Positions 951 through 31,292 of a DNA stretch of 36,791 nucleotides are shown in pieces (the first letter of the stretch is position 1; each line of letters begins with the position of its first letter). Under the pieces are notes generated by a model. The model ran no database searches. It saw only the letters and a list, made by a program, of their open reading frames with translations, and was not told the origin of the DNA. Source of the DNA: Magnetococcales bacterium (lineage in GTDB: Bacteria; Pseudomonadota; Magnetococcia; Magnetococcales; UBA8363). The stretch covers positions 1 to 36,791 of the forward strand of contig JADGCQ010000030.1 of NCBI GenBank assembly GCA_015228925.1. The letters are read 5' to 3'. A program made the position numbers and the translations under genes.

Positions 951-953
951 GGA

Positions 954-7342: not shown

Positions 7343-7426
7343 ACGGATGACTTCCTAACGGTCTGCCGATGGTCGTGGCAGATTGCCCGGTTGTTTTATC
7401 GATGTTGCTTGGAGAATGGCGCAATC

Positions 7427-8137: not shown

Positions 8138-8151
8138 AACTGCCGATGCGG

Positions 8152-11062: not shown

Positions 11063-11101
11063 GGCAGGGCGTTGTTGTTCCATCAATAAGGGTGGTTGAT
11101 T

Positions 11102-12481
11102 ATGTCGGTTAAAGTTCACAGTCCTGTCGATGATATACGCTTGGTGGTTTTTTCTTTTGCTGGCGTCATCATGGCGGGAACAATCCTGCTTACGCGCTCA
11201 TGGTCGGCCTCTTCCCCTCTGGACCATCCTGTTTTTTGGTTGGATGCCTTGTTTATCACGACATCGGCTGTTTGTGTCACGGGTTTGGCAACGATTGATA
11301 TTGGACATGATTTTTCATTTTTGGGCCAAGTCATTATCCTGATCATTATTCAAATTGGTGGCCTTGGGTTGATGACCTTCACCAATTTTTTTATTGCGAT
11401 GAGCGGGAAAACCCTGGGGTTTATGCAACGCGCATTGATCGAAACGACGCATGGAACCCTGCCATCTGAGGTCAAACCCGCTACCCTCCTACGGGATATT
11501 TTTTTATTTACCCTGATTTTGGAGGGGATCGGTGCCTTTGTTCTGACGTTGCGTTTTAGTGATGATTATCCGCTGCGTGAGGCGATTTGGATGGGAATTT
11601 TTCATTCGATTTCCGCATTTTGTAACGCCGGATTTGGTTTGTTTTCCGATAGCCTGATGCGTTACCGGAATGATGTGACGGTCAATCTGACCATCATGAG
11701 TCTGATTGTGACAGGAGGATTGGGCTTTGTGGTCTTTTCCGATATTTTAAATGGGTTGACCTGCCGCAGGGATCATCGTCCTGTCCATTTGACGCTGCAC
11801 AGTCGGATGGTTTTGATGATGACGGCTTTGTTAATCGGTCTGGGGGCTGTTTTTTTCTGGATGATCGAATACGGAAAAGAGGCCATGGGATCTGATATGG
11901 GTTCCGCCATTCTCGCCAGTTTTTTTCTTTCGATCACCACGCGGACGGCAGGGTTCAATACCATCGATACGGCGCATTTGGCGGCACCGACGCTTTTTTT
12001 GATCATCATGTTCATGCTGGTGGGTGGCTCGCCTGGATCGACGGCAGGTGGTGTCAAAACCACGACTTTTGGAACCTTGTTGGCCGTTGTATCGTCTCGT
12101 ATCCGTAACCGGCCCCATGTTGAATTCTTAAATCGCAGCCTTCCCGATGAGACGGTTCGGACGGCCATGCTGACGTTTGTTGCTTTTTGTACCGTTGCGA
12201 CGGTAGGATTTTTTGGGCTTTTATTGTCAGAAACCGGGACAATACCCTATGATCCCAGCCATGATCGAAGTTTGGCACTCCTCTTCGAGACCGTCTCCGC
12301 ATTGGCGACAGTGGGGTTGTCCACCGGCGTGACCTCAGGGCTTTCCGATGGTGGAAAGTGGATCATTATTGGGCTGATGTACATGGGAAGAATTGGTCCC
12401 TTGATCTTGGTGATGTCGTTGATGGGACATCGACCCAGTAAACGCTTTGCCCTCCCGAACGAATCGATTACTATTGGCTGA
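11102..12481 (+). CDS. TrkH/KtrB-family potassium uptake channel subunit
   Basis: This 459-residue integral membrane protein contains the four pore loops of the Trk/Ktr/HKT family: SAVCVTGL, SAFCNAGF, TRTAGFNT and SALATVGLSTG. The GGSPGSTAGGVKTTT segment between the third and fourth repeats is the usual intramembrane gate. The length fits KtrB or short TrkH. It would form the K+ (possibly Na+-coupled) permeation path. The ATG at 11102 follows GGGTGG at 11090-11095. The next gene, its cytosolic regulator, begins 15 nt after the stop, so the two form an operon. Confidence 0.93.
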   Translation: MSVKVHSPVDDIRLVVFSFAGVIMAGTILLTRSWSASSPLDHPVFWLDALFITTSAVCVTGLATIDIGHDFSFLGQVIILIIIQIGGLGLMTFTNFFIAMSGKTLGFMQRALIETTHGTLPSEVKPATLLRDIFLFTLILEGIGAFVLTLRFSDDYPLREAIWMGIFHSISAFCNAGFGLFSDSLMRYRNDVTVNLTIMSLIVTGGLGFVVFSDILNGLTCRRDHRPVHLTLHSRMVLMMTALLIGLGAVFFWMIEYGKEAMGSDMGSAILASFFLSITTRTAGFNTIDTAHLAAPTLFLIIMFMLVGGSPGSTAGGVKTTTFGTLLAVVSSRIRNRPHVEFLNRSLPDETVRTAMLTFVAFCTVATVGFFGLLLSETGTIPYDPSHDRSLALLFETVSALATVGLSTGVTSGLSDGGKWIIIGLMYMGRIGPLILVMSLMGHRPSKRFALPNESITIG

Positions 12482-12496
12482 AAAAGGGGGTTCATC

Positions 12497-13198
12497 GTGA
12501 AGAAAAGTTTTCTGGTCGCTGGCCTGGGGACGTTTGGCAGAGAGACCGCCCTGGCCCTGGCCGATGGGGGTGGCGATGTCCTGGCGTTGGATATGGACGT
12601 CAAAGCTGTGGACAGGGTCAAGGACCGGGTGTCCAAGGTTCTTATTTGCGATGTCACCGATGATCGCACCATGGAAGCCATTGGGGCATTTGAAGTGGAT
12701 GTTGCCGTTGTTGCCATTCGCAGGTACTTCGATGTTGCCATTCTGGTCACCCACTCCTTGAAGATGCACGGTGTCAAGAAGATCATCGCGCAGGTTGACT
12801 CGGAAAGGCAGGGGGATGCCATATTGACGGTCGGGGCCACCGACGTGATCTTTCCGCACCGCGATATTGCGATTCGTACTGCGAAACGGTTATTGTCGGG
12901 CAATTTGGTGGAAATGTTGCCGTTGAACGAGAATATGGCGGTTGTCGAATTGTCTTGTCCTGATGATTTTATTGGCAAGGATCTGCGGATGCTGGATTTG
13001 CGGAAACAATGGGGTGTCAGCGTCCTGGCCATTCAACATGTCGGGCCGGACAAGCGCAAAAAAGAGGCACCGTTGATCAACCCTCCCGCTGAAACCACGT
13101 TGCGTCCGGGTGATACGATGATTCTTTTGGGTTCCAACGATCAGTTTGTTCGCATGTCAAATAAACTCAAGGGCCATCCTTTCCTTGAGTTTAGCTGA
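12497..13198 (+). CDS. TrkA/KtrA-type potassium channel regulator (RCK domains)
   Basis: This 233-residue cytosolic protein has an RCK_N Rossmann domain (GLGTFG at 9-14, LDMD for the ribose, then CDVTDD) and a C-terminal RCK_C/TrkA_C domain (about 140-230, with GKDLRMLDLRKQWGVSVLAI and RPGDTMILLGSNDQF). Such proteins form rings that bind ATP/ADP or NAD(H) and gate the membrane subunit encoded just upstream. Its single RCK pair matches KtrA rather than the double-length TrkA. The start is GTG 12497 with an excellent AAGGGGG at 12484-12490. It is convergent with a small ORF that begins at the very next base. Confidence 0.92.
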   Translation: MKKSFLVAGLGTFGRETALALADGGGDVLALDMDVKAVDRVKDRVSKVLICDVTDDRTMEAIGAFEVDVAVVAIRRYFDVAILVTHSLKMHGVKKIIAQVDSERQGDAILTVGATDVIFPHRDIAIRTAKRLLSGNLVEMLPLNENMAVVELSCPDDFIGKDLRMLDLRKQWGVSVLAIQHVGPDKRKKEAPLINPPAETTLRPGDTMILLGSNDQFVRMSNKLKGHPFLEFS

Positions 13199-13402
13199 TC
13201 AATGGAGAGAGAGCCGTCCGGGTGCGATCATCCAGTTGGTTTCTGCATCGGATTGGGAGGATTGATGGCCATTCATGGTCAACTCGCGGAAAATATCCAA
13301 GGCATCCTCGATACGTTGGATATCTGACACCAATTCCTGTTCGTCCAGGGTGCGGGTGATGGCGTAACCGTCTTTCTTGATGATGATTTGTAGAGGGATC
13401 AT
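13199..13402 (-). CDS. Small hypothetical protein
   Basis: This predicted 67-residue protein starts MIPLQIIIKKDGYAITRTLD and continues into a helical stretch with EELVSDIQ-like spacing and RIEDALDIFRELTMNG. The frame is open further upstream to 13471; the later ATG is chosen because the sequence becomes protein-like there. The stop codon abuts the potassium regulator stop (13198/13199) on the opposite strand. I recognise no family, and the coding evidence is only composition and a coherent amphipathic pattern. Confidence 0.45.
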   Translation of the reverse strand: MIPLQIIIKKDGYAITRTLDEQELVSDIQRIEDALDIFRELTMNGHQSSQSDAETNWMIAPGRLSLH

Positions 13403-13499
13403 ATTGCACACTTCGTGAAGTTTGGGGTTGGGTGGGTCACTGTTTGTATGGAATCCCCATGGATCAAGCAAGAATCATGCAGATTTGTATTATGGTGTT

Positions 13500-13627
13500 T
13501 GCCGGAGGGGGTGAGGATCAATAAGTCTCAACTTTGCCGTCGTCATGTCCGATAACATGGTTACATCCCTTGGACAAGGATGCTCTCTGATGACCCAGTG
13601 GTAGCGTGCTACCGCTGGGTTTTTTGT
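13500..13627 (+). ncRNA. Candidate small RNA ending in an intrinsic terminator
   Basis: The 362 bases between the small minus-strand ORF (13402) and the lipoprotein gene (13765) hold no convincing ORF. They do hold a run of hairpins on the plus strand: CATGT/ACATG at 13544-13559 with a 6-nt loop, an imperfect TCCCTTG/CAAGGA at 13566-13580, and a strong terminator at 13593-13626. A strong plus-strand terminator here does not belong to an adjacent plus-strand gene, since the potassium regulator ended 395 nt earlier. This makes a short independent transcript plausible. No known RNA family was recognised, and the 5' end is a guess. Confidence 0.3.
13593..13626 (+). terminator. Intrinsic terminator upstream of the lipoprotein gene
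   Basis: Arms ACCCAGTGGTAGC (13593-13605) and GCTACCGCTGGGT (13608-13620) pair with one G-T wobble, and a T-rich tail follows from 13620. It is a textbook intrinsic terminator on the plus strand. Confidence 0.85.
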
Positions 13628-13764
13628 TTTCTTGGGTGCCTTGTCGTGGTTTTGGCATAAATAATGAAAGCTACGAGAAGGATATTGATATTCAGATTGC
13701 CTATTGATATCATTCTACAGATTTCTAGCCAATCAATCATGATCAGTTGAAAGGATTTTCTGAT

Positions 13765-16700
13765 ATGTCCTCCATGTTAAAAAAGAGTGCCATGGTCTCT
13801 CTTTTGCTGCCCGTGTGGGTGGCTGCCAGTGGGTGTGGCGGCGGTGGGGGGAGTGGCACAGCCTCTTCTTCTTCATCGGTTTCGGGTATGGTCATCGACG
13901 GTCCGGTCTCTGGTTCGACGATCACTATCAAGGATAGTGCGGGTAATGCGGTCACGACGACCACCAGTGGCAGTGATGCCAAATATACCGTTTCCATCCC
14001 GTCGGGTGTCGTTTATCCCTTGCGGGTGAGCATCTCCGGGGGGACCGATCTGGTCTCTGGGGAAACACCCATGGGTATGGAATCCCTGGTGACCGATGCC
14101 ACCCAATCCACGGCGAACGTGACGCCCATCACCTCCATGATGTATTATGCGGCCCTTTCTGGTGCCGGAGGTGATTTGAGTAAGGTGACCTCCGCCATCG
14201 TGAAAACGGCCAAGACCAATGTGATCTCCCAGTTTGGATTTGGCACCGATTCCGAAGACAGCAGTTTTGATCCCGTCTCCAGTACGATCAGTTCCAGTAA
14301 CGTCACCTCCGTGATGATGGCTGCCGAAGCCATGGCGGAGACGTTGCGCCGGGCCGTGGGGACCGATTCTGCGGATATCACCAAGGCGTTTGCGGCTCTT
14401 GGCGAGGATATGGTCGATGGATCCATGGATGGGAAAAAAAGCGGGGCGGCGTTGTCGAACACCTTGCCGACCGGCTTTAGTGCCACGACCTTGGTCTCTT
14501 CCATGACCCAGCAAAAGGCACTGGTCGGTGCCGAGGTTGTGGGGAACAGTCTCAAGGTCACCAAAAAAGATGGGACACAATTGACCTCCGACGAGGTGAA
14601 GACCAAAGTATCCCAGGCGATCAATAAGGTGGATGCCACGGTGACTGCGGACAGTGCCTTGACCAAAATGTCTAATCTGACCGTTTCTTCCAACATGAAG
14701 AGTCAATGGTCTTCCGATGTTTCCAACGCCATCACCGTGCAGACAAACTTGGGGGTGGATACCACCGCCATGACGGCACTGAAAACAACCGCTTCCAGTC
14801 TGGAAACTGGAAAATCAGGTGCCAGTCAGGTGACCAGTACGGTGATCGGCAATGTGGAAACCAGCGTCAAAACTGCGGCTATCGAGGTTAAAAAAGAAGC
14901 AAACCTGGATAAATTGACAACGGCGGTCTCTTCGTTGACGGCACCTTCTACTTCGGTGACCACCTCTACGTCCACCTCTACGTCCACCTCTACGCCTGCT
15001 TCTACCGGACCCAGTAACGCCATCAGTGGTAGCATGAGTGCCGGCGCATTGATCAATACCGATGTCGTTGTCACCATGAAGGACAAGGATGGTGATTCCA
15101 TTACCTGTACGACGACCGGTGCCAGTTATAGTTGTGATATCAGCCAGATGCCAACGCCAAACCCGCCCTATTTCATTAAGGTGCAGGGTAAGGCGGGCAA
15201 CAAGGAATATACCCTGTATTCCGTGGCGCACAAAAGTGGCAAGGCCAATGTCAATCCGATGACCAATTTGGTGCTTTCCAACGCTATGGGTGGAGACCCT
15301 GGGGCCGTTTTCAAGGATCCCGGCAATTCCACCTATGCCGACAAGGTTGCGAAGGTTGACACCGAGGGAGAGCTTTCCACGAAAGTGGAGCAGTTCAAGG
15401 AAAATTTCCTGAAGACTTTGGAGAACCAGGGGTATGCGGGTGCCAACGTCGATCCCTTCGATGTCGATATCAGCGAGGGGACGGGTCTTGACAAGGTTTT
15501 TGACGGCATGGAGATTTCAGTCAATGCTGCCGGTGGTTACCAAGTGCTTGACAAAATGAAACTGGCTACCAAGGGCAAGGCCGATGCCATGGTGCTGAGT
15601 GGCAATGTCGCCACCTTCGATCCCGCAAATACCACCATCGACACTTCAAAATTAAGCTCAGGGAGTCAGGATTTTTCCGATCCCACTATCCAGAAACAGT
15701 TGGCTCACGCCCTGACATTGGGTACCAATGTCAGTGTGGTGGATAACAAGTCCGATGAAACAACGGCTCCTGCCACGAATCAGCGCGCCAGGAGCCGTTC
15801 CCTGCGTGCCGCCAGTGCCGATGAAATGGCTTTGATCAATCCGGTTTCCGATTTTTATCAGGATGAGACCATCTTTCATGTCCACGAAAAATCGGGAGAG
15901 GCCCTCTCCACGATCAATGAGATTTTATGTGCCGTGGATCAAACCCGTTATGACCAAATGCTCAATCAAGGCCCCTACAAGGCCCAGATTGATTGGAAAC
16001 AGTGTCAATCCAGCAAGGACGATCCATCGTCCCAGGGGCAGAGTGGTCAAAACACCTCTTCGGGTTCCGGGGCACCGGAGTTTGGCAACTGGATTGTGGA
16101 TTCGCAACGTGCGAGTAACGCGGATCCTCAAATCGTCAAGGTATGGGCCTATGAGAACAAGGACAAAGGGGGTGGCGGCACCGAAGGTTCTTCATCCGGT
16201 TCCCTGATTTATGCGTACTCGAAGATTCAAAAGGGGGCGAGTGAAAATAATCCCTACGGTATTTTTACCATGGATTTCAAGGGGGTTAATCTGAGTGCCG
16301 ATGGCAGTCCAGGTCCTGAGGAGATGATGCGTGGTTTTCTGAATGTGGGGGAACGGGACGACAAGCGGATCACATTGACCTTTATGGATCAAGAGAGTCA
16401 TGGCGCGGAAACATTGGGTAAAAAGGTAGTCTTGGTGAGAACTCCAGATGGTAAGGCCGGGACCGGGAGCGTCAATTTTGTCGAACCGCAGTGGGATGAG
16501 GCCAGCCAGAAACCGGTTAATTTGCAACATACCTTTCACTTTTCCTTTGATGAGGACTGGTTTTTGCGCCGGGATGCGGAATCGGGAAAGAATACCTGTC
16601 TTTCCCGTAATCACTATAAAGAAGATATCTGGCGTTATGGCCTGTATCATCTCTCCAACCCCACGGCGGGGTCGGATAAAACTTGGAAACCGGGTGATCG

Positions 16701-18903: not shown

Positions 18904-20118
18904 TTATTTCTTAAGGATTTTGGCCACTGCCGGAGCTTGAACCCGGGACCAGACCGGGATATCGCTACCCAGGAGCGGACGGATGTAATCCATGAAGGCC
19001 GGAGTAATGTCGGAATTGTTGCTGGCAATGAAATTGTCGGACATTACCTTGGTTTTTGCGGCGACATCTTCCAGTGCGCTCAGTTTGTACTCGACCGCAT
19101 ATTCGGCAACGCGGTGAATGGTGACGGTTCCCGATTTTCCGCCGTACATGGCGAACTGGACCCCCTTTTGTCCCACTTCACGGGCTTCCTTTTGGTCAAC
19201 ATCGGAGACCACCCCCAGGAATGAGCGTTGGAGGTAACCGAAGGTGTCGCCGCGAACCCGTTTGATTCCACATTTGCCTTTGATGGCATCGGTGAGAAGA
19301 TCGGCGAGGGCACCGGTACCGGAGAGTTGCACGTTGCCATGGGCATCGCGTTCCACTTCTTTGGCGAGTTTGGTGGCGATGGGTTCACCGCTTTCGTCGT
19401 GGATCCCTTCGGAGGCGGCGACGATGCAACGACCATGTTTGGCGTAAGCGGCTTTGACATCGGCCAGGAACTTATCCATGGAGAAGCTGCGTTCCGGCAG
19501 ATAGATCAGGTGAGGTCCATCGGAATCATAACGGCGCAACCCAGCGGCGGCGGCTGTCAGGAATCCGGCATGGCGTCCCATGACGACACCGACGTAGACG
19601 CCAGGGAGGGCGCGATTGTCAAGGTTGGCACCGGCAAACGCCGAGGCGACGAACCGGGCGGCGGAAGGAAAGCCGGGGGTATGGTCGTTGATCATCAGGT
19701 CGTTGTCGATGGTCTTGGGGATATGGATACCCACAAGTTCATAGTTTTCTTTTTTGGCAAAATCGTTGACCAGACGGATGGTATCCGAGGAGTCATTGCC
19801 GCCGATGTAGAAGAAGTAGCGGATATCGTGGGCGATGAGGACTTTTAAGATTTCGGCGCAGTAGGCGGCATCGGGTTTATCGCGGGTGGAACCCATGGCC
19901 GAAGCGGGGGTCAAGGCGAGTTTTTCCAGGTTTTCGTTGGTTTCCTGGGTGAGATCAAGGAAATCTTCCTTGATGATACCGGAGACGCCATGATGGGCGC
20001 CATAGATGCGGTCTACGTTGGGAAACCTGCGAGCTTCCTGGACGATACCAACGAGAGATTGGTTGATGACCGCTGTAGGGCCACCGCCCTGGGCGACCAA
20101 TACTTTCCCCTTTTTCAT
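18904..20118 (-). CDS. 6-phosphofructokinase, probably pyrophosphate-dependent
   Basis: This 404-residue protein is a PfkA-superfamily enzyme that phosphorylates fructose 6-phosphate to fructose 1,6-bisphosphate. The N-terminal VLVAQGGGPTAVINQSLVG, the GGND motif (106-109), PKTIDND (134-140), GVVMGRHAGFLTAAAA and VRGDTFGYLQRS are visible. Asp109 (Gly in ATP enzymes) and Lys135 in PKTIDND (Gly in ATP enzymes, PGTIDND) are the two residues known to mark PPi specificity. The usual GGDD is GGND here. A PPi enzyme would work reversibly in glycolysis and gluconeogenesis. The ribosome-binding site AAGGA is 5 nt before the ATG. Confidence 0.9.
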   Translation of the reverse strand: MKKGKVLVAQGGGPTAVINQSLVGIVQEARRFPNVDRIYGAHHGVSGIIKEDFLDLTQETNENLEKLALTPASAMGSTRDKPDAAYCAEILKVLIAHDIRYFFYIGGNDSSDTIRLVNDFAKKENYELVGIHIPKTIDNDLMINDHTPGFPSAARFVASAFAGANLDNRALPGVYVGVVMGRHAGFLTAAAAGLRRYDSDGPHLIYLPERSFSMDKFLADVKAAYAKHGRCIVAASEGIHDESGEPIATKLAKEVERDAHGNVQLSGTGALADLLTDAIKGKCGIKRVRGDTFGYLQRSFLGVVSDVDQKEAREVGQKGVQFAMYGGKSGTVTIHRVAEYAVEYKLSALEDVAAKTKVMSDNFIASNNSDITPAFMDYIRPLLGSDIPVWSRVQAPAVAKILKK

Positions 20119-20337
20119 AATTTCCTTGCTCCTGTTTTCAATAGAGTGACGGACGGTTTCCGGTTGCCATGAGGATTTCTCATCGCACCGGTTGCAACGT
20201 GATTAAAGACCGCTAGTAAGGGTCTATCTCATGGCACCCCACTATAATCGCACGGGGGCTACTTTGGAAGGTTAGGCGATGGTGTGATGGGCGTCGGTAT
20301 GATCTTTTTCGCTATCATAAGTCCCTTAAACGGGCGA

Positions 20338-20625
20338 TCATGAGGCCGGGCGGTCTGCAAAAACATCGTCCAGGGATTGGGCATCGAAAATACGAAGACT
20401 CCAATTCTCCAAGGAAGACTGCTCTGCTTTGGCTATTTTTTCGTTGGCCCAATCCGGTACAATGCCAAAACGGCGTTGTAACAGGCGCGTCAATATCTTC
20501 GCCTCGCTGTCCCGATGAGACATTTCTAGCCGATGTTTTATCTTTGGCAGAGAAAAAAGTTTTTCTTCTGGCATTGTCTCCACCATGGACTCAAACCATT
20601 CTTTATCCAAGCTTTCCAAGTTCAT
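20338..20625 (-). CDS. Truncated DUF4351-type protein (third, partial copy of the tandem array)
   Basis: This 95-residue ORF matches only the C-terminal part of the two longer proteins upstream: EWFESMVETMPEEKLFSLPK, RDSEAKILTRLLQRRFG, then ANEKIAKAEQSSLENWSL and DAQSLDDVF. It lacks the nuclease-like N-terminal domain. It has its own start with a GGGAG 5 nt upstream, so it may still be expressed. In DNA, 20368-20487 is almost identical to the end of the next copy (one difference seen). The middle linker resembles the third copy, and its N-terminal part has diverged. It is either a remnant or a donor for recombination. Confidence 0.7.
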   Translation of the reverse strand: MNLESLDKEWFESMVETMPEEKLFSLPKIKHRLEMSHRDSEAKILTRLLQRRFGIVPDWANEKIAKAEQSSLENWSLRIFDAQSLDDVFADRPAS

Positions 20626-20691
20626 CGGGACTCCCTCAGTCGGTCCTGGGATTGATCAATTTCATGGGGACACTTTGTACGTTGTCATTCT

Positions 20692-21648
20692 TTAGTCCGA
20701 AAGAACATCGTCCAGGGATTGGGCATCGAAAATACGAAGACTCCAATCCTCCAAGGAAGACTGCTCTGCTTTGGCTATTTTTTCGTTGGCCCAATCCGGT
20801 ACAATGCCAAAACGGCGTTGTAACTGGCGCGTCAATATCATGGCCTCTCCTTCATGCTTGCTATCCCGCCGTTCTTGCTCCAGCCGATGCTCTAACTTTG
20901 GCAGAGAAAAAAGTTTTTCTTCCGGCGTTGCATCCACCATCGACTCAAACCATTCTTCCCCAAGCCGAATGACATATTCGGGTGTGATCTCTTCCATTCC
21001 AGGATGATTCAAGGCACTTTTCATTTTTAACCTCCACAAACCATTGATAACCCGACCAAATGCCTCCGAGAGTTTGGACAACCCAGCGTGCTGGATCGTC
21101 GCGAACGCTTTTTCTTGCTCGTTCTGTCGGCTGGCGAAACATTTTAGGGGAGCGTTATGGGTTTCATCCGCCAATTCGTTGAGAAAAATCAATCGGATAA
21201 CACCGCCCCAGGATGGAATGCTTTCATAAACACCAACCGGTCCAACAGGCTTAAAAGAATGTTTTTCCAAGAAATCTTTTCGAGACGTGATGGCACTGAT
21301 GATCACGCTCTTCAATTGATGGCGTTTCAGCTTGGCCGTCTCCAAATAGAGGGTGTCGTACACCGAAAGCCATGTCAGTGTTTTTTCGTTCAGGCTTTCG
21401 GTAACTTTTAATTCAACCAAGATTTGGTCGGCCTCAAGATCGTGTAGTCCATCCGCCAAACGGACACGTTGCTCTTGAGTCCATCCCCCGCTGCCAACTT
21501 CTTTTCGCTGAATCAAAATAAGATCTGCCACGGGTGGGGCGGGGACGACAGGGACTTCCATGCGGACTTCAATGCCGACGGGTTCCAACAGCACTTTCAG
21601 CGTTTCACCGACCAAGCGGTGCCAATAGGTTTTCCCCTCTTGTTCCAT
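20692..21648 (-). CDS. PD-(D/E)XK nuclease-like protein with DUF4351-type C-terminus (copy A)
   Basis: This is a 318-residue protein. The N-terminal half has a plausible PD-(D/E)XK core: Asp42 in VADLILIQR, then Glu79 and Lys81 in ILVELKVTES. The C-terminal 70 residues (EKLFSLPK ... LTRQLQRRFG ... ANEKIAKAEQSSLEDW ... DAQSLDDV) are the DUF4351-like helical domain common on Rpn-type recombination-promoting nucleases. The ATG at 21648 lies 8 nt after the stop of copy B, so the two are probably co-transcribed. Residues from about 38 to 262 are identical in copy B; the C-terminal linker is longer here (EQERRDSKHEGEAM). Assigning nuclease activity is an inference from fold motifs. Confidence 0.78.
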   Translation of the reverse strand: MEQEGKTYWHRLVGETLKVLLEPVGIEVRMEVPVVPAPPVADLILIQRKEVGSGGWTQEQRVRLADGLHDLEADQILVELKVTESLNEKTLTWLSVYDTLYLETAKLKRHQLKSVIISAITSRKDFLEKHSFKPVGPVGVYESIPSWGGVIRLIFLNELADETHNAPLKCFASRQNEQEKAFATIQHAGLSKLSEAFGRVINGLWRLKMKSALNHPGMEEITPEYVIRLGEEWFESMVDATPEEKLFSLPKLEHRLEQERRDSKHEGEAMILTRQLQRRFGIVPDWANEKIAKAEQSSLEDWSLRIFDAQSLDDVLSD

Positions 21649-21656
21649 GTTGTTTT

Positions 21657-22616
21657 TTAGTCCGAAAAAACATCGTCCAGGGATTGGGCATCCACAAATC
21701 GCAGACTCCAATCCTCCAAGGAAGACTGCTCCGCTTTGGCTATTTTTTCGTTAGCCCACTCCGGTATCGTGCCAAAACGGCGTTGTAACTGGCGCGTCAA
21801 TATCTTTGCCTCGCTGTCCCGATGAGACGCCTTGAGCCGATGCTCTAACTTTGGCAGAGAAAAAAGTTTTTCTTCCGGCGTTGCATCCACCATCGACTCA
21901 AACCATTCTTCCCCAAGCCGAATGACATATTCGGGTGTGATCTCTTCCATTCCAGGATGATTCAAGGCACTTTTCATTTTTAACCTCCACAAACCATTGA
22001 TAACCCGACCAAATGCCTCCGAGAGTTTGGACAACCCAGCGTGCTGGATCGTCGCGAACGCTTTTTCTTGCTCGTTCTGTCGGCTGGCGAAACATTTTAG
22101 GGGAGCGTTATGGGTTTCATCCGCCAATTCGTTGAGAAAAATCAATCGGATAACACCGCCCCAGGATGGAATGCTTTCATAAACACCAACCGGTCCAACA
22201 GGCTTAAAAGAATGTTTTTCCAAGAAATCTTTTCGAGACGTGATGGCACTGATGATCACGCTCTTCAATTGATGGCGTTTCAGCTTGGCCGTCTCCAAAT
22301 AGAGGGTGTCGTACACCGAAAGCCATGTCAGTGTTTTTTCGTTCAGGCTTTCGGTAACTTTTAATTCAACCAAGATTTGGTCGGCCTCAAGATCGTGTAG
22401 TCCATCCGCCAAACGGACACGTTGCTCTTGAGTCCATCCCCCGCTGCCAACTTCTTTTCGCTGAATCAAAATAAGATCTGCCACGGGTGGGGCAGGGGCG
22501 ACAGGGACTTCCATACGGACTTCAATGCCGACGGGTTCCAACAGCACTTTCAGCGTTTCACCGACCAAGCGGTGCCAATAGGTTTTTCTCTCTTGTTCCA
22601 AGCCGATGGTTTCCAT
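21657..22616 (-). CDS. PD-(D/E)XK nuclease-like protein with DUF4351-type C-terminus (copy B)
   Basis: This 319-residue paralogue is almost identical to copy A over the first 260 residues, including the Asp and ExK motif, and has a different DUF4351 linker (KASHRDSEAKIL) and C-terminus (FVDAQSLDDVFSD). I place the start at ATG 22616. The frame is open to TTG 22688, which has a good GAGGA just upstream and would add 24 residues, so the longer form is a real alternative. The gene is first in the three-copy array. It is 167 nt downstream of the small secreted-protein gene in the same direction. Confidence 0.78.
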   Translation of the reverse strand: METIGLEQERKTYWHRLVGETLKVLLEPVGIEVRMEVPVAPAPPVADLILIQRKEVGSGGWTQEQRVRLADGLHDLEADQILVELKVTESLNEKTLTWLSVYDTLYLETAKLKRHQLKSVIISAITSRKDFLEKHSFKPVGPVGVYESIPSWGGVIRLIFLNELADETHNAPLKCFASRQNEQEKAFATIQHAGLSKLSEAFGRVINGLWRLKMKSALNHPGMEEITPEYVIRLGEEWFESMVDATPEEKLFSLPKLEHRLKASHRDSEAKILTRQLQRRFGTIPEWANEKIAKAEQSSLEDWSLRFVDAQSLDDVFSD

Positions 22617-22783
22617 TGCTTCAAAGTGGGCGAAACCGACAAGCATCGGGATCCCCTGCGGCAACGCCCCCAGACCATTCTCTATCAAGTTTCCTCTTTC
22701 GGCAAGAAAAACATAGGCAAATTTTGCGCGGTGTTATTCTCTAGCCCGAAACTTTCCGAGTTGACTGGGATTCCCTGCTCGCA

Positions 22784-23083
22784 TTACTGCGAGACCTCCC
22801 GTGGTGCATCCATCTGGGCGTGGCGGATGGCGTACTGATCGTTGATATGCCATACGCCATTCTTGTAATACTGATTTGGCTGGCCAACATGATGGGTGTA
22901 GGAGGGGAAAATTTTGATGATGCTTCCGACGGCATCGGGGTGGCGGTCGGTGGGTACGCCATAGACGCACCAAGTTTGATCCTCATGGTAGTGGGTTGGA
23001 TTGCCTGCGGGGCAGGCCCACGCCAGGGGGGGGAGGAGCAGGGTCAAACCAAACATGAAAGGAGTCCATTTCAATTTTTTCAT
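22784..23083 (-). CDS. Small secreted protein, unknown function
   Basis: This 99-residue precursor has a clear Sec signal peptide: MKKLKW start, hydrophobic core FGLTLLLPPL and a likely cut after AWA (about residue 23). The mature part is short, His-, Tyr- and Trp-rich (THYHEDQTWCVYG, YTHHVGQPNQYYKNGVWH), with two Cys. It probably sits in the periplasm or outside. The repeated His could bind a metal, but no family is recognised. A GAGGGA ribosome-binding site precedes the ATG. It is divergent from the nitroreductase across 156 nt. Confidence 0.75.
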   Translation of the reverse strand: MKKLKWTPFMFGLTLLLPPLAWACPAGNPTHYHEDQTWCVYGVPTDRHPDAVGSIIKIFPSYTHHVGQPNQYYKNGVWHINDQYAIRHAQMDAPREVSQ

Positions 23084-23239
23084 TTGTCCCTCGCAGTGCC
23101 AAGGTGAATAAACAGACGAGACATTCTAGGCTGGAATGGGTATGATCGGCAAGGTCTGATTTACATTAAAGTATTGGCGGATTGCATTTTGACGCAAATG
23201 ATTATCTTTTTGAGAAGCCGATAACCATGTGGAGGGGTT

Positions 23240-23905
23240 ATGAATGTTATCCAGGCCATCGAGGGGAGGCGATCCATGCGTGGCTTTTTGCGCCAACCGG
23301 TTTCCAAGGAGGTCGTGGAATCGATTCTCCAGACGGCGCGCTGGTCGCCATCGGGGGTTAATCTTCAACCCTGGCGGGTGGAGGTGGTCATGGGGGACAC
23401 CTTGTCCAAGTTATGTACACGATTGACGGTATTGGCCGAGGCGGGGGTGTCCAAAAATCCCGATTACTCCTTCCATCCCCACCTTTGGAAGGAACCGTTT
23501 CTGGGACGGCGACGTGCGTGCGGTTTTGGGTTGATCGATGCCATGGGGATAGAACGGGAAGATGCGGTAGGGCGTCGGCAAGCTTGGTTGGCAAATTATT
23601 CCTTTTTTGGTGCCCCTGCGGCCCTGCTCCTCTTTATGGACCGATCTTTGGGACAGGGAGCCTGGATCGATATGGGGATGTTTTGGCAGACAATCATGTT
23701 GACGGCGGTTGCCCATGGTCTTGGAACTTGCCCACAGGCCTCGGTGGCCGATTATCCCGACACGGTACGGGAATTGCTGGATGTGGATGAACAGTACATG
23801 TTATTGGGTTCTTTGGCTCTCGGTTATCCCGACCCTCAGGCTCAATCCAATACGTTGCGAACGAGTCGTCTGAACGTGGAAGAGTTCGCTACGTTTCACG
23901 AATGA
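23240..23905 (+). CDS. Nitroreductase family FMN-dependent oxidoreductase
   Basis: This 221-residue protein is an NfsB/NfnB-like flavin reductase that would bind FMN as a dimer and use NAD(P)H. The entry motif IEGRRSMRGFLRQPVSKE and the ARWSPSGVNLQPWR block bind FMN phosphate in the family. The C-terminal LLGSLALGYPD is also typical. It probably reduces quinones, nitro compounds or an unknown electron acceptor. It begins with a GGAGGGG directly upstream of the ATG. The 150-nt gap to the TolC gene holds nothing else I can support. Confidence 0.9.
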   Translation: MNVIQAIEGRRSMRGFLRQPVSKEVVESILQTARWSPSGVNLQPWRVEVVMGDTLSKLCTRLTVLAEAGVSKNPDYSFHPHLWKEPFLGRRRACGFGLIDAMGIEREDAVGRRQAWLANYSFFGAPAALLLFMDRSLGQGAWIDMGMFWQTIMLTAVAHGLGTCPQASVADYPDTVRELLDVDEQYMLLGSLALGYPDPQAQSNTLRTSRLNVEEFATFHE

Positions 23906-24056: not shown

Positions 24057-25469
24057 ATGATGTTGCGGTGTGCGGGATCCTTCCGGTGGAGAACCGGGTT
24101 TGCGCTCATGTTGCTGGTGTTGTTCCCCTCGGCGGTATGGGCCGAGACGTTGCGGGAAGCGGTGGAGTCCATTCTGTTGCGCCATGACCGTATTTTGGCG
24201 GCGCAGGCGGATCTTGCGGCGGCGGGCGAGCGCAAAGATCAGGTGCAACGCACGTTATTCATGCCCAACCTGACAGTCACGTCCCATGTGGGCAAGGAAC
24301 GCCAAAGCCATCAGACCAGCGGTCCCGATACCGATATGACCTCTCGTGAATTGGATCTGGCGGTTAAGCAATTGCTCTTTGACTTTGGCAAGGGGATCGC
24401 GGACGTTTCGGTGCAGGGTTGGCAGCAGCAGCAGATGCGGGAAGCCTTGGAGAACGCCAATCAAACCCTCATCCTGGATGCGGTCGTTTCCTATCTCAAT
24501 CTGGCTCGGGCCAACAAGGTTCTTGAATTTGCAAAAAAATCAGTCGCCAATGTTCGGCATCAAGGAGAGGTTGAAAGTGCCCGCGTGACCCTGGGCAAAG
24601 GTTATTCGACCGATGTTCTTCAAGCCAAGGCGCAATTGGCGGGGGCTGAGGCCCGCCAGGTGCAATCCCGTGGAATTTTGTTGCAGGCCCAAGATCATGC
24701 CCGCACGGTATTCTTGCGGGAACCCGAAGAGGTGGTGCAGTTGCTCCCCCCAGATGACTCTTTGGTGATTCTCCCTAAAGCTATGGATGACGCCTTGAAA
24801 TCCGCCATCGCATCCAACCCCCAGTTGCGGCAATTGGCAGCGTTGGTGGATGGTTTGAAGGAGGCGCGCCACAGTGCCAAAATTGGCGGTTTCCTCCCTA
24901 CACTCAATGGGGTGTGGGAATACAAGATGAAAAATGATGTGAGTGGTGTGGACGGTTTTGAACGGGAAAATTTTGTTAAGGCGGAAATGTCTTTTCCCTT
25001 CAACCTGGGGCTTGCCAGCGTCAGTTCTGTCAGGGCGGCGCAACGGGATCTCGATGCGGCCACCAATCGTTATAACGATACCTTGCTTTTGGTGCGCGAA
25101 CAGGTGCGCACTTCCTGGCATAACCTGGAAACCTCCCGCGAAAATGCCGATCTGTTGACGACGCAGGCCTCCTTGGCGGAAAAATTTCTTGAATTGGCCA
25201 AAGAGGAGCGTGCTTTGGATAAACGGACGCTGTTGGATGTGTTGAACGGTGAAACTGCCCTGATCAATGCGCGCAGTGACGCTTTATCCGCCAATACCGA
25301 TGTGCGGATTGCCTCCTACACCCTGCTTCAGGCGATGGGGAGTCTTTCGACAGAGGTACTCAGTGCTTCCAAGGGGGGACACACCAGTACCGTCGTCGAT
25401 CAAAGGCCCATCCCACTGAGTATGGATAATAAGAAAAAGGATTCGGCGAAGCATGGGAAGGTGAAGTAG
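24057..25469 (+). CDS. tolC: TolC-family outer membrane factor of type I secretion
   Basis: This 470-residue precursor has a signal peptide (hydrophobic FALMLLVLFPSAVWA, cut about residue 29) and two outer-membrane efflux domains. Family features are LREAVESILLRHDRILAAQADL near the start, the LDLAVKQLLFDFG strand region, the helical repeats with ARVTLGKGYSTDVLQAKAQLAGAEA, and the second repeat ending in LDKRTLLDVLNGETALINARSDAL. It forms the outer-membrane channel. The RTX, ABC and HlyD genes follow in order, so it is the outer component of that exporter. AGGAG lies a few bases before the ATG. Confidence 0.93.
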   Translation: MMLRCAGSFRWRTGFALMLLVLFPSAVWAETLREAVESILLRHDRILAAQADLAAAGERKDQVQRTLFMPNLTVTSHVGKERQSHQTSGPDTDMTSRELDLAVKQLLFDFGKGIADVSVQGWQQQQMREALENANQTLILDAVVSYLNLARANKVLEFAKKSVANVRHQGEVESARVTLGKGYSTDVLQAKAQLAGAEARQVQSRGILLQAQDHARTVFLREPEEVVQLLPPDDSLVILPKAMDDALKSAIASNPQLRQLAALVDGLKEARHSAKIGGFLPTLNGVWEYKMKNDVSGVDGFERENFVKAEMSFPFNLGLASVSSVRAAQRDLDAATNRYNDTLLLVREQVRTSWHNLETSRENADLLTTQASLAEKFLELAKEERALDKRTLLDVLNGETALINARSDALSANTDVRIASYTLLQAMGSLSTEVLSASKGGHTSTVVDQRPIPLSMDNKKKDSAKHGKVK

Positions 25470-25510
25470 TTTTTTTAGAGTTTGCATGATCCAGAGGATA
25501 GGAGTACGTC

Positions 25511-28500
25511 ATGATCAGGTCATTGGATCCCTTCATTCCCGGTCAGCATCGTCCGTGGACCCCGGAGGTGATGGATGTTGCGGCTGGCAAACCGTTGGTG
25601 GTGGGTCATGACGATTTTTTGCTTTCGGCCCAATTTACCCGTCAGGGGAGCGACCTTCTCCTGGAGGGGGGGGTCGATTATCCAGGGCATTCGGTTCTCA
25701 TTCCCGGTTATTTCTCCATGGCTGCGCCACCGGATCTTGTGACCGACTATGACGCCAGGATCACTGCGGATCTGGCCCACAGACTTGCAGGACCGATGGT
25801 TCCGGCGGTGTATGCCGAAAATGCGGCACCGACCGCTGCAACGACGGCTATTTCGGGTGGCGATGGTGTCGGGCGTGTGGAAACGGTGGACAAAGGGGCG
25901 ACGATCGTTCGTGCAGGGATCAAGATGGCGGCGGTGAAGGGGATGGCTATCCAGCAGGGGGATGTCATCGAAACCGTCAAGGGGGGTGGGGTTGGTTTGG
26001 TGTATGCCGATAATACGACGATTTCCTTGGCCAATTCGGGACGGATGGTGGTGGAGGAGATGAAATTTGATCCCGCTAAGGGAGAAGGGCGTTCCACGAC
26101 CAATGTGGTTCAGGGAGAGTTTTCCTTTGTCAGTGGTCAGGTTGCCAAAATGGGGACTGACCGCATGGTTTTCAAGACGCCGGTGGCGGTCATCGGGGTC
26201 CGTGGTACCACGGTTGCGGGCAAAGCCTCCGCCGAAGGTTCGGAAAATAGTTTTACCTTGTTGCCGGATGCCGATGGCGGGGTAGGTAAGATTGCGGTGA
26301 CCAATCAGACGGGAACCATTATTCTGTCGCAGCCCAACCAGACGACCACACTGACCAGTTTCACGATCAAACCGACGGCACCGGTGATTTTATCTCCCCA
26401 GGAGGTTCAATCCCGATATGGTGGTGCCACCCGGATATTACCACCGCCGCCCGTGACGAATCAGGATGGCAAAACCGGTGCCGATGCCGCCGGTAAAAGT
26501 GGTGATGGTCAACCGGGAGGCGAAGGTAAGGTTGGGGAAAATGGTGAAAAAGCCCCGGATGGGGAGAACCAACCCAAAGGGGAAGGGGATGCCCCGCCGC
26601 CCAAGGGTGGGCCGGGGGAGGGTGGAGAGACCCCGCCCGTGCCGGGTGAGGAGGGTAAACCGCCTCTTGGACCAGGACAGGGTGCTACGCCACCCGAAGC
26701 GGGTACGCAAGGACCGGGTGGTCCACCTCAAGGAGGGGTTGTTATGGGAGGACAACCGGGTGCGATGGCGGGTCCACAACCTCCCCCTGTTGCAGGTCCG
26801 CAACCGATTTCCCTGGCGAGTGCGCAGCAAGGTGCTATGGGGGGGGTGGCTGGTTTTTCCAATATCCAATCCATGGGTGCCAAACCATTGGGATCAGACA
26901 CCATGGCCCCCCTGGGTGTCAAGGGGGTGGCTGACAATCCCATGGCCCCGGCGGTCCCTTCGCTGGGAGCGACGAATCAAGCCAACAGATCCGTTCTCAC
27001 GAACGCGAATGATGGTCCTGTCAAAACCGCAGGGACGACACTGTTGCAACCCACAAATCAGACGCTGACCGCAGGGACGCTACCCAACGTATTGAAGAGC
27101 AATACGGTCGTAGGGCCGACTTTGGAAGTTGCCCCCGTTGTTCCGCAGACGCAAACTCCGGTGCAAGGGAACAATACGCCTCCTGTCCAAAGTCAGCCGA
27201 CTGCGCCTGCCAGTACCCAGCCGACTGCGCCTGCCAGCACGACCCCGACGCCGCCGGATGTTCCGACGACGCCATCGCCCAGCGTGCCGTCACCGACGGT
27301 GCCGGTGGTTGCCCCCACTCTGGCGGTGCAGGATACATTCGGTAGCCATGTGCATCCGTTTTATCTTTCCATCGATGCCGCTTTGGTGGATACGGATGGT
27401 ACGGAGACGTTGACGATTGCCGTCGATGGTTTGCCTGCCGGGAGTACCCTTTCCGCAGGGGAACCCAATGCCAGTGGCCATTGGATTGTCCCCCCAGAGC
27501 AGTTGCATGGTTTGTCTTTGACCCTGCCGCAGGGGGCACCGGACACCTTTTCATTGACGGTGACGGCGACGACAACCGATGCCACGGGGAGCGTGACGGA
27601 GCAGGCTGTCGATACCCTGGGGGTTTGGCAGGCTGGTGCGAATGATTTATTCTATGTGAATTATAGTTATGCTCCAGGACTTTATAATGAATCGGCACTG
27701 TGGGAAAATTTCAGGTTGGGTTCTGGCTCGGTGACGGTGGACGCCGCAAACCATACCTTCACGTACCAGGAAACGATGGCGTCGGATAACACCCTGGCAC
27801 CGAGTCCGTTTGGTTCCTATACGCAATATTCCGATGGGATGTTCAATCTGGTTCTGACCAACAACGTGATTGCCCACGGTGCGATTTCGGAAAATAACGC
27901 GCTGGGTATGTTTTTCTTTGCCCAGGAATCCTACGAGACTGCCACGCCGAGTTCGACCATGGGATTGGTCATTCCCGATGGGATTGGGTTGAACAATGCT
28001 TCATTGATGGGGGAATACCGTTTTGCTTATCTCGAAGATCATCCCAGTGGTCCTGTCACCGGCTATGGCAAAGTGACTTTGGATGGTGCCGGGAAAGGGA
28101 CGGCTGTGGATCAAGCGACCTCGGACGGTCATCCAACCACCACGCATTTTGACTATTCGGTTCAGGCCAATGGGGAACTGGTGATCACCGAGTCAGACGG
28201 CACGGTCGGCCATGGAAAGATTTCTCCTGATGGGGAAGTGTTTTTCCTCACCGATTTTAACACCTCGTCAACCAGCATTGCCATTGGATTGCACAATGGG
28301 ACGGCCATTCCAACCGTGGCGAGTCTGAACGGAGATTATACTTTCGGAAAGTATAATACGTATCTTTATAATTCCCCAAGCACGACGACGACCTATAATA
28401 ATTGGTATTCCAAAGCGGGGATCATGGACTTCAATGATCATGGCGTTGGACAGGAGTACCAGATTGTCAGCGATAGCTATTTGATCACCGGGAATAGCAC

Positions 28501-29548
28501 GAGTGCCACGGTCGATGCCGATGGATGGTTCCACATGAGCAATGCCACACATTCCATGCATGATAGCATTGGGATATTGTCCAGCGATGGCAGCATCTTG
28601 GTCACTGTGGATGCGCAACTCAACACGGTCGATCACAGCGATAGCGTTCTGGGGTTGGGCATTGCGATACGGCAGGATACCGTGGATGGTATGTTGCAAG
28701 GGGGAAGTGCCTCTTCCGGGACTTTGGTAACCGATATTCTTGGTCGCCAGGGGGATGACGGTTTTTCAGGGACTTCGGGGATTGCCGTGACCGATGCTCC
28801 GAACGTGGCTGGCGTGGGACATTGGCAGTATACTCTGGACAGTGGCGCGACCTGGAGTGATTTTGGCTCCGTATCTTCCAATTCGGCGCAAGTCTTGGCG
28901 GCGAACAGTGCAACCCAGGTCCGTTTTGTGCCAGACGCAAGTTATACGGGAGATTCTGTCCTCCAATATCATCCCTGGGATGGCTCCGGTGGTTATCATA
29001 ACGGTCAAGTGGGGGTGGATGTGATGGCCCATAGCGGGGCATCGGGGTTTGGCAAAGTCCCAGAATCGGCGGTGATTTCGGTCATGCCTACCCCCCATGA
29101 TACGGTGCAATACGGGATGGTCGGGATGAACAGTACCGTTTTTGGAACATCGGGGCATGATCTTCTGTTGGGACAATCCGGGAATGATTCTTTGCGGGGC
29201 AATGCGGGGAACGATACCCTGGTGGGGGGTGGGGGCAACGATACCTTTTATTATTATTCGGCGAGCGATTCCACCGTGGCGGCCCCGGACACCATTGTGG
29301 ATTTTAACAACGGCGGCAATGAGAAAATTAATTTTGCGCCGTCCATGATCACAGGAACCTTTGGCTACATTGGCAGTACGGCGTTTCATGCGACGGGTCA
29401 CACCGAGGCCCGGTTTGATGCAACCTCGGCGGTATTGCATGTGGATCTGGGTGGAGACGGGGTGGCGGATATGGCCATCAAGATGTCTCATGTGACCCTC
29501 GCGGATTTGGATTCGACCGATTTTACGACCACCAGTGTTATCGTCTGA
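25511..29548 (+). CDS. Large FecR- and RTX-containing type I secretion substrate (putative adhesin)
   Basis: The protein has 1345 residues. Residues ~120-290 contain a FecR domain (AVKGMAIQQGDVIETVKGGG, then FVSGQVAKMGTDRMVFKTPVAVIGVRGT). Next come a Gly/Pro/Glu-rich disordered stretch (~310-430), a PT/PA/Q-rich linker (~540-603) and an Ig-like domain. Three degenerate beta-rich repeats of about 105-120 residues follow (starting near 718, 830 and 937). A second Ig-like domain (GHWQYTLDSGATW) leads into nonapeptide calcium-binding RTX repeats (~1210-1250: GTSGHDLLLG, GNDSLRGN, GNDTLVGGGGNDTF) and a C-terminal export signal-like region. The lack of a Sec signal, the RTX end and the neighbouring exporter genes indicate type I export. 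A role in adhesion or biofilm is likely but inferred. ATG 25511 has AGGAG upstream. Confidence 0.85.
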   Translation: MIRSLDPFIPGQHRPWTPEVMDVAAGKPLVVGHDDFLLSAQFTRQGSDLLLEGGVDYPGHSVLIPGYFSMAAPPDLVTDYDARITADLAHRLAGPMVPAVYAENAAPTAATTAISGGDGVGRVETVDKGATIVRAGIKMAAVKGMAIQQGDVIETVKGGGVGLVYADNTTISLANSGRMVVEEMKFDPAKGEGRSTTNVVQGEFSFVSGQVAKMGTDRMVFKTPVAVIGVRGTTVAGKASAEGSENSFTLLPDADGGVGKIAVTNQTGTIILSQPNQTTTLTSFTIKPTAPVILSPQEVQSRYGGATRILPPPPVTNQDGKTGADAAGKSGDGQPGGEGKVGENGEKAPDGENQPKGEGDAPPPKGGPGEGGETPPVPGEEGKPPLGPGQGATPPEAGTQGPGGPPQGGVVMGGQPGAMAGPQPPPVAGPQPISLASAQQGAMGGVAGFSNIQSMGAKPLGSDTMAPLGVKGVADNPMAPAVPSLGATNQANRSVLTNANDGPVKTAGTTLLQPTNQTLTAGTLPNVLKSNTVVGPTLEVAPVVPQTQTPVQGNNTPPVQSQPTAPASTQPTAPASTTPTPPDVPTTPSPSVPSPTVPVVAPTLAVQDTFGSHVHPFYLSIDAALVDTDGTETLTIAVDGLPAGSTLSAGEPNASGHWIVPPEQLHGLSLTLPQGAPDTFSLTVTATTTDATGSVTEQAVDTLGVWQAGANDLFYVNYSYAPGLYNESALWENFRLGSGSVTVDAANHTFTYQETMASDNTLAPSPFGSYTQYSDGMFNLVLTNNVIAHGAISENNALGMFFFAQESYETATPSSTMGLVIPDGIGLNNASLMGEYRFAYLEDHPSGPVTGYGKVTLDGAGKGTAVDQATSDGHPTTTHFDYSVQANGELVITESDGTVGHGKISPDGEVFFLTDFNTSSTSIAIGLHNGTAIPTVASLNGDYTFGKYNTYLYNSPSTTTTYNNWYSKAGIMDFNDHGVGQEYQIVSDSYLITGNSTSATVDADGWFHMSNATHSMHDSIGILSSDGSILVTVDAQLNTVDHSDSVLGLGIAIRQDTVDGMLQGGSASSGTLVTDILGRQGDDGFSGTSGIAVTDAPNVAGVGHWQYTLDSGATWSDFGSVSSNSAQVLAANSATQVRFVPDASYTGDSVLQYHPWDGSGGYHNGQVGVDVMAHSGASGFGKVPESAVISVMPTPHDTVQYGMVGMNSTVFGTSGHDLLLGQSGNDSLRGNAGNDTLVGGGGNDTFYYYSASDSTVAAPDTIVDFNNGGNEKINFAPSMITGTFGYIGSTAFHATGHTEARFDATSAVLHVDLGGDGVADMAIKMSHVTLADLDSTDFTTTSVIV

Positions 29549-29562
29549 ACTTTTGTCCATTC

Positions 29563-29595
29563 CGGTTTCCTATTCAAAGCGTGAATAGGAAACCG
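29563..29595 (+). promoter_or_regulatory. Intercistronic perfect hairpin between substrate and exporter genes
   Basis: CGGTTTCCTATTCA (29563-29576) and TGAATAGGAAACCG (29582-29595) are perfectly complementary, with a 5-nt loop. No T-run follows, so it is unlikely to be a full intrinsic terminator. It lies 15 nt after the RTX stop and 23 nt before the ABC start. It may stabilise the 3' end of the substrate mRNA, giving more substrate than exporter, as happens at some operons with segmental decay. The effect is inferred. Confidence 0.7.
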
Positions 29596-29618
29596 CATCG
29601 TGATCGCTACCGGCCCCC

Positions 29619-31289
29619 ATGGAACGATTGATTCGACGACTCATGGCGCGACCAGCCCTTGTTGTGGAGGTGCTGGTTGCTTCTTTGATCATTCATCTGC
29701 TCTCGTTGTCTACCTCGATTTATGTCATTCAGGTTCTCAACCGCTATGTTTCCAATGGGGTGGATTCAACCTTGGTGACGTTGACGGTTGGGGTCTTGGT
29801 TGCCATCATCATGGAATGGGTGGTGCGTCGTCTGCGGTTTCGCATGATGGACGGTTTTACCGCCCGCCCGGATGCAGAATTGGCAGGTCGAGGTTTTTTT
29901 CAATTGACGGGGGCCAAAGGATCCCACTTGAGCCGTTTGAGCGAGGGGCAACGCCGTGAAGCGATGATGGCCATCGTTCCGTTGCAATCCGCTTTGGGGC
30001 GAGAGAGCATCATGACGCTGGTCGATTTTCCCTTTGCCTTGTTATTTGTGGCGGCACTCTTTTTTCTCAACGTCAGGGTCGGGGTTGTCGCGAGTCTTTT
30101 TCTGGCGTTGGTTTTGGCCAGTTCCCTGGTCATTCAATGGGTTCTCAAACCCTCGCTGCGGGGGCAAAATCGACTGTTGCAGGATCAAAATTTGTTGTTG
30201 CAATCGGTTTTGCGGGCGGTGGAGGAGATTCGGACATTCAATGCCCATGTGATGTTGCGCCGTCTCTGGGGAGAGCGGCAGACACGTTGGAATCAAGGGC
30301 GTAATCGGGTCGCTGTGCGCCAGGAGATGCTGAAACAATGGGTGCAGACGGGATCGGCGTTGATGAGTGTGGTGGTGGTCGCTCAGGGGGCGATTTTGGT
30401 GGTCAATGGCGAGATGAACGTCGGTGCCATGATTGGTGCGAACATTTTGGCTGCCCGAGCTTTGGCGATCATCGCCCGTTTTGCGCAGTTGGGTGGGGCC
30501 ATGGAGCAGGGTGAGGCGGCGGCGGAAAGTTTGGAACGATTGCTGAAACTTCCGTTGGAATCCCTGGAAGGGACGGCATTGAAAACATTTACCGGTACGT
30601 TGGAGTTGAATGACGTTGCTTTTGTGTATCCGGGGGCGTCGGCACCTTTGTTTGAATCGCTTTCCATCCGTTTGATTCCCGGAAGTCTGGTGGTGGTGGC
30701 GGGTGAAAATGGGGCGGGAAAAACGACGCTGGCGCGATTGCTCACCGGCTATTTGGATCCGGTGCGGGGTAAAATCCTGGCGGATGGGTTGGAACTCAGG
30801 CAGATGGCTGGGGCATGGTGGCGGCGGCAATTGGTGTATTTTCCTCAGGAGCCGGTATTTTTTGATGGGACCATCCTGGACAACATCACCGTCAATCGAC
30901 CCGATATTCCATTGGATCGATTGAACATGATGGTCGATTCATCGGGATTGCGCCGTTTTGTCAATGAAAGTCCCGATGGTTTGCAAACCCGCCTGGAGGG
31001 TGGGGGTGGTTATTTGGCATTGGGGTTGCGGCGTCGCATTGCGTTGGCGCGGGGGTTGATCAGCGATGGGATGGTGGTCATTTTTGATGATCCTTTGGAA
31101 GGGATGGATACCCAGGGGGTTGCGGCGGTTATGACGGTTTTGGCGGCCTTGAAGGGCAACGGCAGGACAGTCATCGTCATGTCCCACGATGTGGAGCCTT
31201 TCCGAGAATTGGCCGATGCGTTTCTGGATTTGAACAGCAAACCCAAGCCACTCCTGCGGCGGTCATTGCCAGGTATCCAAGGGGCGTGA
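29619..31289 (+). CDS. Type I secretion ABC transporter/ATPase (PrtD-like), with degenerate signature motif
   Basis: This 556-residue protein has a six-segment membrane domain (about 20-300) and one nucleotide-binding domain (about 330-556), the layout of PrtD/HlyB exporters without a C39 peptidase domain. Walker A is GENGAGKTT (362-370), the Q-loop lies in VYFPQEPVFFDGTILDNI, and the H-loop His523 is in VIVMSHD. The signature usually reads LSGGQRQR but is LALGLRRR here (466-473). The usual catalytic Glu after Walker B is Asp491 (FDDPLEG). It would pair with the following HlyD and the TolC protein to export the upstream RTX protein. Confidence 0.9.
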   Translation: MERLIRRLMARPALVVEVLVASLIIHLLSLSTSIYVIQVLNRYVSNGVDSTLVTLTVGVLVAIIMEWVVRRLRFRMMDGFTARPDAELAGRGFFQLTGAKGSHLSRLSEGQRREAMMAIVPLQSALGRESIMTLVDFPFALLFVAALFFLNVRVGVVASLFLALVLASSLVIQWVLKPSLRGQNRLLQDQNLLLQSVLRAVEEIRTFNAHVMLRRLWGERQTRWNQGRNRVAVRQEMLKQWVQTGSALMSVVVVAQGAILVVNGEMNVGAMIGANILAARALAIIARFAQLGGAMEQGEAAAESLERLLKLPLESLEGTALKTFTGTLELNDVAFVYPGASAPLFESLSIRLIPGSLVVVAGENGAGKTTLARLLTGYLDPVRGKILADGLELRQMAGAWWRRQLVYFPQEPVFFDGTILDNITVNRPDIPLDRLNMMVDSSGLRRFVNESPDGLQTRLEGGGGYLALGLRRRIALARGLISDGMVVIFDDPLEGMDTQGVAAVMTVLAALKGNGRTVIVMSHDVEPFRELADAFLDLNSKPKPLLRRSLPGIQGA

Positions 31290-31292
31290 TTG

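Follow-up and report, generated by a model that had tools for sequence, protein, structure and literature searches.

DUF4351 module exchange among Rpn-like genes of Magnetococcales, with a three-copy array as one instance

The closest described systems to the locus studied here are the Rpn proteins (YhgA-like, COG5464; RpnL/RpnS, PMC10327210, PMC5350276), with which it shares a nuclease-type body followed by a variable C-terminal domain. For RpnC, a mismatch of one repeat abolished inhibition (PMC10327210); the same paper draws a comparison between the Rpn repeats and those of EcoR124I/II. How the variable Rpn C-termini diversify was left open by Zhong et al. (PMC10327210). The main text of that paper describes variation in repeat number, and no exchange of modules between bodies was found there. 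For DUF4351 (PF14261), the domain at the C-terminus of the genes described here, Pfam gives no function; a mechanism is proposed below.

The window, i.e. the whole stretch of 36,791 nucleotides that was analysed, comes from a 219-contig draft genome of Magnetococcales (G000); the MAG DCbin2 is a near relative. It contains an array of three copies, which are transcribed from the minus strand in the order B, A, C; their features are presented in Table 1. The ATG of copy B was picked by homology, the listed ORF extending to 22688, and copy A starts 8 nt past the stop of B. All three copies pass the curated cut-off of DUF4351 (PF14261). When the same locus is compared in relatives, the interval between the flanking genes for 6-phosphofructokinase (PFK) and nitroreductase measures 637–959 bp and is array-free in five congeners, and 3121 bp here (20118–23240); the array is therefore lineage-specific at this locus. 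Transposition of the array was considered and is unsupported. The inverted matches found between 19500 and 23500 are weak (70–77%) and none of them forms a pair flanking the array. To the right of the array lies a 99-aa ORF with a signal-peptide-like start (22784–23083), and a similar sequence seemingly occurs in the corresponding intervals of genomes G001 and G005. The region 24057–32591 contains a type I secretion-like set, which consists of an outer-membrane efflux protein, a 1345-aa ORF, an ABC transporter and an HlyD-type adaptor.

Table 1. Features of the three-copy array (positions within the window).
Feature	Position	Strand	Basis
Copy B, Rpn-like protein of full length, with a body of the PD-(D/E)XK type and DUF4351 at the C-terminus	21657..22616	-	sequence, homology
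DUF4351 of copy B	21669-21815	-	PF14261 search
GGAGG within B, predicted as internal Shine-Dalgarno, 6 nt ahead of the internal ATG	21984..21988	-	
Predicted internal S product of B, ATG 21975-21977 to stop	21657..21977	-	
Copy A, also of full length, its body sharing 659 identical nt with that of B	20692..21648	-	
DUF4351 of copy A	20704-20862	-	PF14261 search
Predicted internal Shine-Dalgarno GGAGG in A	21031..21035	-	
Predicted internal S product of A, ATG 21022-21024 to stop	20692..21024	-	
659-nt run common to A and B without a difference (in B at about 21835-22493)	20882..21540	-	
Linker block unique to A, with 12-nt (4-aa) insertion at about 20848-20859	20840..20881	-	
Module block of A following C, not B (2 differences to C/136 nt)	20704..20839	-	
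Copy C, stand-alone DUF4351 protein of 95 aa, candidate antitoxin of the RpnS type	20338..20625	-	
GAGGGAG as the Shine-Dalgarno of copy C, 5 nt ahead of its ATG	20631..20637	-	duplex energy -8.0 kcal/mol

Concerning the relationships among the three copies, A and B differ by 31 substitutions and a 12-nt indel, and the differences are unevenly spread: after six within the first 108 nt comes a stretch of 659 nt (219 codons) that has none, and the last 200 nt hold 25. Nine of the 23 differing codons are synonymous. A difference-free run of this length appeared in 0 of 100,000 random placements of the 31 differences. The exact sequence of A, B and C is provisional, as it comes from the 219-contig draft and an exact repeat of 659 nt is hard for short reads. 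Towards the 3′ end A instead follows C, with a single difference in the last 121 nt of the block listed in Table 1. The linker with tcgctgtcccgatgagac is common to B and C, which agree with each other at most sites of the linker block, whereas A has its own linker with 12 additional nt. The informative sites along A thus pass from a B-like body through its own linker to a C-like module, and a 3SEQ-like permutation test in which A is taken as the mosaic of B and C gives p of about 3e-5 once an N-terminal alignment artefact is removed (1e-4 for B as the child, 8e-4 for C). The nearest modules to that of A in the assembly are those of C (96% nucleotide identity) and B (91%), and there is no exact copy. 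The original prediction had described A and B as sharing about 225 identical residues and diverging in the DUF4351 linker and end, with C nearly identical to A at its 3′ end and sharing the middle linker with B; all of this agrees with the present comparison, to which the six differences near the start of A and B are to be added.

The array is not isolated. About 60 DUF4351 modules are found in G000, on 8–10 body families; a protein query matched 64 places, mostly by the C-terminal module alone, and a PF14261 profile search gave 54 matches. Same-genus relatives contain 32–66 modules each, apart from G003 (2 matches, 74% complete), and G018, a relative assembled in one contig of 4,719,581 bp, contains 10. 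Modules or A/B-type fragments are located within a few hundred bases of the ends of G000 contigs C1, C22, C31, C38, C81, C94, C168, C198, C213 and C218; the number of modules at contig ends indicates that DUF4351 repeats break the assembly. Other arrays are present on a contig of G005 (C88, locus L162), where positions 1–14500 hold five tandem full-length copies with a spacing of 964–966 bp, and in a second array a stand-alone tail accompanies two full-length copies. Searches with copy C gave no match in a phage collection and one weak match among plasmids. On a Thiodictyon syntrophicum plasmid (L233, 2381–3246), a DUF2887 body is encoded apart from a DUF4351 tail, the two genes overlapping by 16 nt.

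In G000, module similarity is nearly independent of the body: modules are on average 50% identical where the bodies are homologous and 49% where they are unrelated. The Spearman coefficients of body versus module are 0.37 and 0.46 in G000 and G005, compared with 0.85 and 0.93 for a 47-residue body control, and the bootstrap difference between module and control excludes zero in both genomes; for the 10 genes of G018 the difference is not significant. Significant change points fall between 60 codons upstream of the module and the module start in 44 of 46 pairs, the gene pairs in these comparisons not being independent. Looking at single cases, one clear example has bodies 84% identical and modules 39%. 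Two copies of G018 have upstream DNA and bodies identical but for a few sites and modules about 50% identical; they diverge inside a 12-nt CTTCAGAAAGGG repeat tract, and a third copy carries yet another module. In G005, one module of about 165 nt is replaced between two flanks of about 90% identity or more, and unrelated bodies share about 230 nt at about 90% identity, comprising the module and the 3′ end. C19_6548/C19_7529 of G005 and C186 of G000 were set aside as examples of such sharing, because masked N stretches spoil the body comparison. Sharp breakpoints together with the decoupling of body and module indicate that modules move by recombination at the tetrad/linker region. The exchange appears to be of mixed type, to judge from the alignments: some pairs regain identity downstream, as in gene conversion, and others do not, as would follow from crossover or duplication. 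Exchange of the C-terminal module with the body kept, as originally predicted for the array, is an order-wide pattern in Magnetococcales, of which A/B/C is one instance: it recurs in the same genome, in congeners and in the one-contig relative. The prediction of a local cassette did not hold, since module-sharing copies are scattered over the genome on unrelated bodies, and the suggestion of an exchange driven by the enzyme itself is unsupported.

The body of the A/B family has the residues expected of a PD-(D/E)XK nuclease in its sequence: among 20 homologues E80 and K82 are invariant and D43 is at least 90% conserved, which bears out the catalytic motif (D, then E-x-K) that had been pointed out earlier. 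It has no credible match in Pfam, NCBIfam, PADLOC or PDB sequence searches and, as a difference from Rpn, it is recognised by neither Transposase_31 nor TIGR01784. An AlphaFold model (mean pLDDT 82) gave no significant match in a fold search; the highest probabilities, 0.60, are those of MspJI and Bse634I, both PD-(D/E)XK enzymes (E above 0.05). Several other bodies in the genome set match Transposase_31 or PDDEXK_2, and one passes the TIGR01784 (Rpn family) cut-off.

Signals for internal translation starts are found upstream of the modules. In the A/B family, GGAGG or GGAGA stands ahead of the ATG at B residue 238. Every homologue with the GLWR motif uses AGG or AGA for the Arg before this invariant ATG, compared with 19% AGR usage in the bodies; variants with GLRS form AGGAG one codon further upstream. 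Based on 152 full-length genes, a strong Shine-Dalgarno (cut at -6 kcal/mol, an arbitrary value) is present at 31–43% of the ATGs located 20–80 codons before the module and at 3.6% of those in the N-terminal body. At least one ATG with such a signal occurs in the S region of 128 of the 152 genes, against 56 in synonymous-codon shuffles; the control region gives 8 observed and 9 in shuffles. Among representatives at 60% identity, the internal start signal is present in 23 of 25, against 12.6 in shuffles. These sequence signals suggest that the internal starts may be used for translation. The 12-nt insertion of A, which places AAGGAG before an ATG, was considered as the main S start; the conserved upstream GGAGG with its ATG is better supported.

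Full-length (L) genes often have a stand-alone (S) gene within the following 420 nt, and of all modules in the genome, or in the examined loci, that of the S gene is the closest to that of the L gene. The module identities of such pairs are 96% at the nucleotide level for A–C, 90% for C172 and 95% for C176, and further pairs are found in G002, G004, G006, G016, G035 and G039. Many S copies start a few codons upstream of the internal start of the L gene, and some have no detectable start signal; copy C starts about 15 codons downstream of the point that corresponds to the internal start of B. Because stand-alone copies often keep the start region and match the neighbouring gene, copy C is probably a separate gene, a candidate antitoxin. 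The description of C as truncated thus stands as regards the missing body, but not otherwise, given its own Shine-Dalgarno and ATG. Adjacent copies differ by multiples of 4 aa, save a few poorly aligned or unrelated pairs. A is 4 aa longer than both B and C, and of about ten tight L–S pairs, six have an L that exceeds its S by one tetrad, a small sample in which one pair was judged by eye. By the RpnC result, an L gene one tetrad longer than its downstream S should pair with it more weakly; C may for this reason not inhibit A. The predicted structure of the S product has a long helix at residues 42–72 followed by two shorter helices. A Foldseek comparison of this prediction with solved structures gave no match, the fold of RpnAS being a three-helix bundle (PDB 7TH0), and a PDB sequence search with the S profile returned nothing credible.

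We consider it likely that the array is an operon of Rpn-type intragenic toxin–antitoxin genes, which was tandem-duplicated and whose tails were exchanged by homologous recombination. It would comprise two full-length toxins (B and A) and the stand-alone tail C as an extra antitoxin. The array would have grown by tandem duplication at a locus that is array-free in congeners; homologous recombination (gene conversion or crossover) would then have moved tails between copies while the bodies stayed, with breakpoints near the stop codon and in the tetrad-repeat/linker region that precedes the module. Homology to RpnL/RpnS (PMC10327210) suggests that L in its full length would be a toxic nuclease, and that the tail made from the internal start or from C would bind the tail of L and block it, the tetrad helix setting the fit between L and S. 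L and its internal S would change together, because both share the same DNA, so that exchange at the tetrad helix could give a body a new tail and hence a new antitoxin fit. The tail itself may be an antitoxin and oligomerisation domain, and changes of module and tetrad number may reset which antitoxin fits which toxin. The role of these genes may be phage defence. A wider proposal, which we put forward tentatively and hold to be possible rather than probable, is that of a genome-wide exchangeable antitoxin module: recombination at the 12-nt tetrad repeats would re-pair unrelated nuclease bodies in Magnetococcales with tails drawn from a shared pool, produce cross-immunity groups and create new self-specificities, and cuts by the Rpn nucleases would promote the exchange.

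Other explanations of the pattern were weighed against this one. An assembly artefact, in which reads from about 60 similar modules are joined to the wrong bodies, is suggested by the state of the draft, with its 219 contigs, many modules at contig ends and the exact A/B repeat. The same mismatch of bodies and modules is found in the one-contig G018, however, so that misassembly alone does not explain the pattern; the module of A is no copy of any other in the assembly, arrays and L–S pairs recur in several genomes, and we regard this explanation as improbable. Without any exchange, fast evolution of the tail under diversifying selection, through point mutations and slippage of the 12-nt repeats, would account for a tetrad number that varies in 4-aa steps, as in E. 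coli rpn (PMC10327210). It appears very unlikely, the least probable of the alternatives, given that synonymous sites change along with the module, unrelated bodies share modules at about 90% nucleotide identity, and breakpoints are sharp, with identity resuming downstream in one pair.

The two remaining alternatives concern function. Copy C could be a decaying duplication remnant without a role, as it has no body and some other fragments in the genome contain stops; its open frame with its own Shine-Dalgarno, the L-then-S pairs with closest module matches in other genomes and, in comparison with A, a module end better conserved than the part upstream make this the less likely reading, though one to which we give somewhat more weight than to those above. 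The original prediction took the module as a specificity domain, i.e. a target-specificity or DNA-binding module swapped so as to change the target of the nuclease. The combination of a constant nuclease-like body with a hypervariable C-terminal domain does resemble specificity-domain swapping, and RpnS has HHpred similarity to helix-turn-helix motifs (PMC10327210). On the other hand, internal start signals and stand-alone copies would make the tail a separate product, as for an antitoxin, and RpnAS directly inhibits RpnAL (PMC10327210). A specificity function is about as improbable as the assembly artefact, and an antitoxin/dimerisation domain of the RpnS type is the best reading of the module.

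The pattern points to recombination in the tetrad region as the means by which whole tails pass from one nuclease to an unrelated one. Should the tail be the antitoxin, every swap would change the pairing of inhibitor and toxin, which would offer a quick route to new toxin–antitoxin specificities. Pairs for testing this are available, both of the same body with different tails and of different bodies with nearly the same tail.

Of the known systems, the type I restriction enzymes EcoR124I/II (4-aa TAEL repeats) also vary in the number of a 4-aa repeat; there the repeat number alters the spacing of the DNA target, and no homology is claimed. The likeness to Rpn is broader. It includes the 4-aa repeats in the helix before the C-terminal domain, the internal start signals, the downstream stand-alone S genes (annotated as DUF4351 in some species) that are closest to the upstream L, and the tandem arrays formed by duplication. 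The Magnetococcales sets differ from Rpn in being larger, with up to 66 modules per genome, in having modules common to unrelated body families and in having breakpoints at the tetrad tract. With respect to PMC10327210, the exchange of tails between unrelated bodies is provisionally taken as new.
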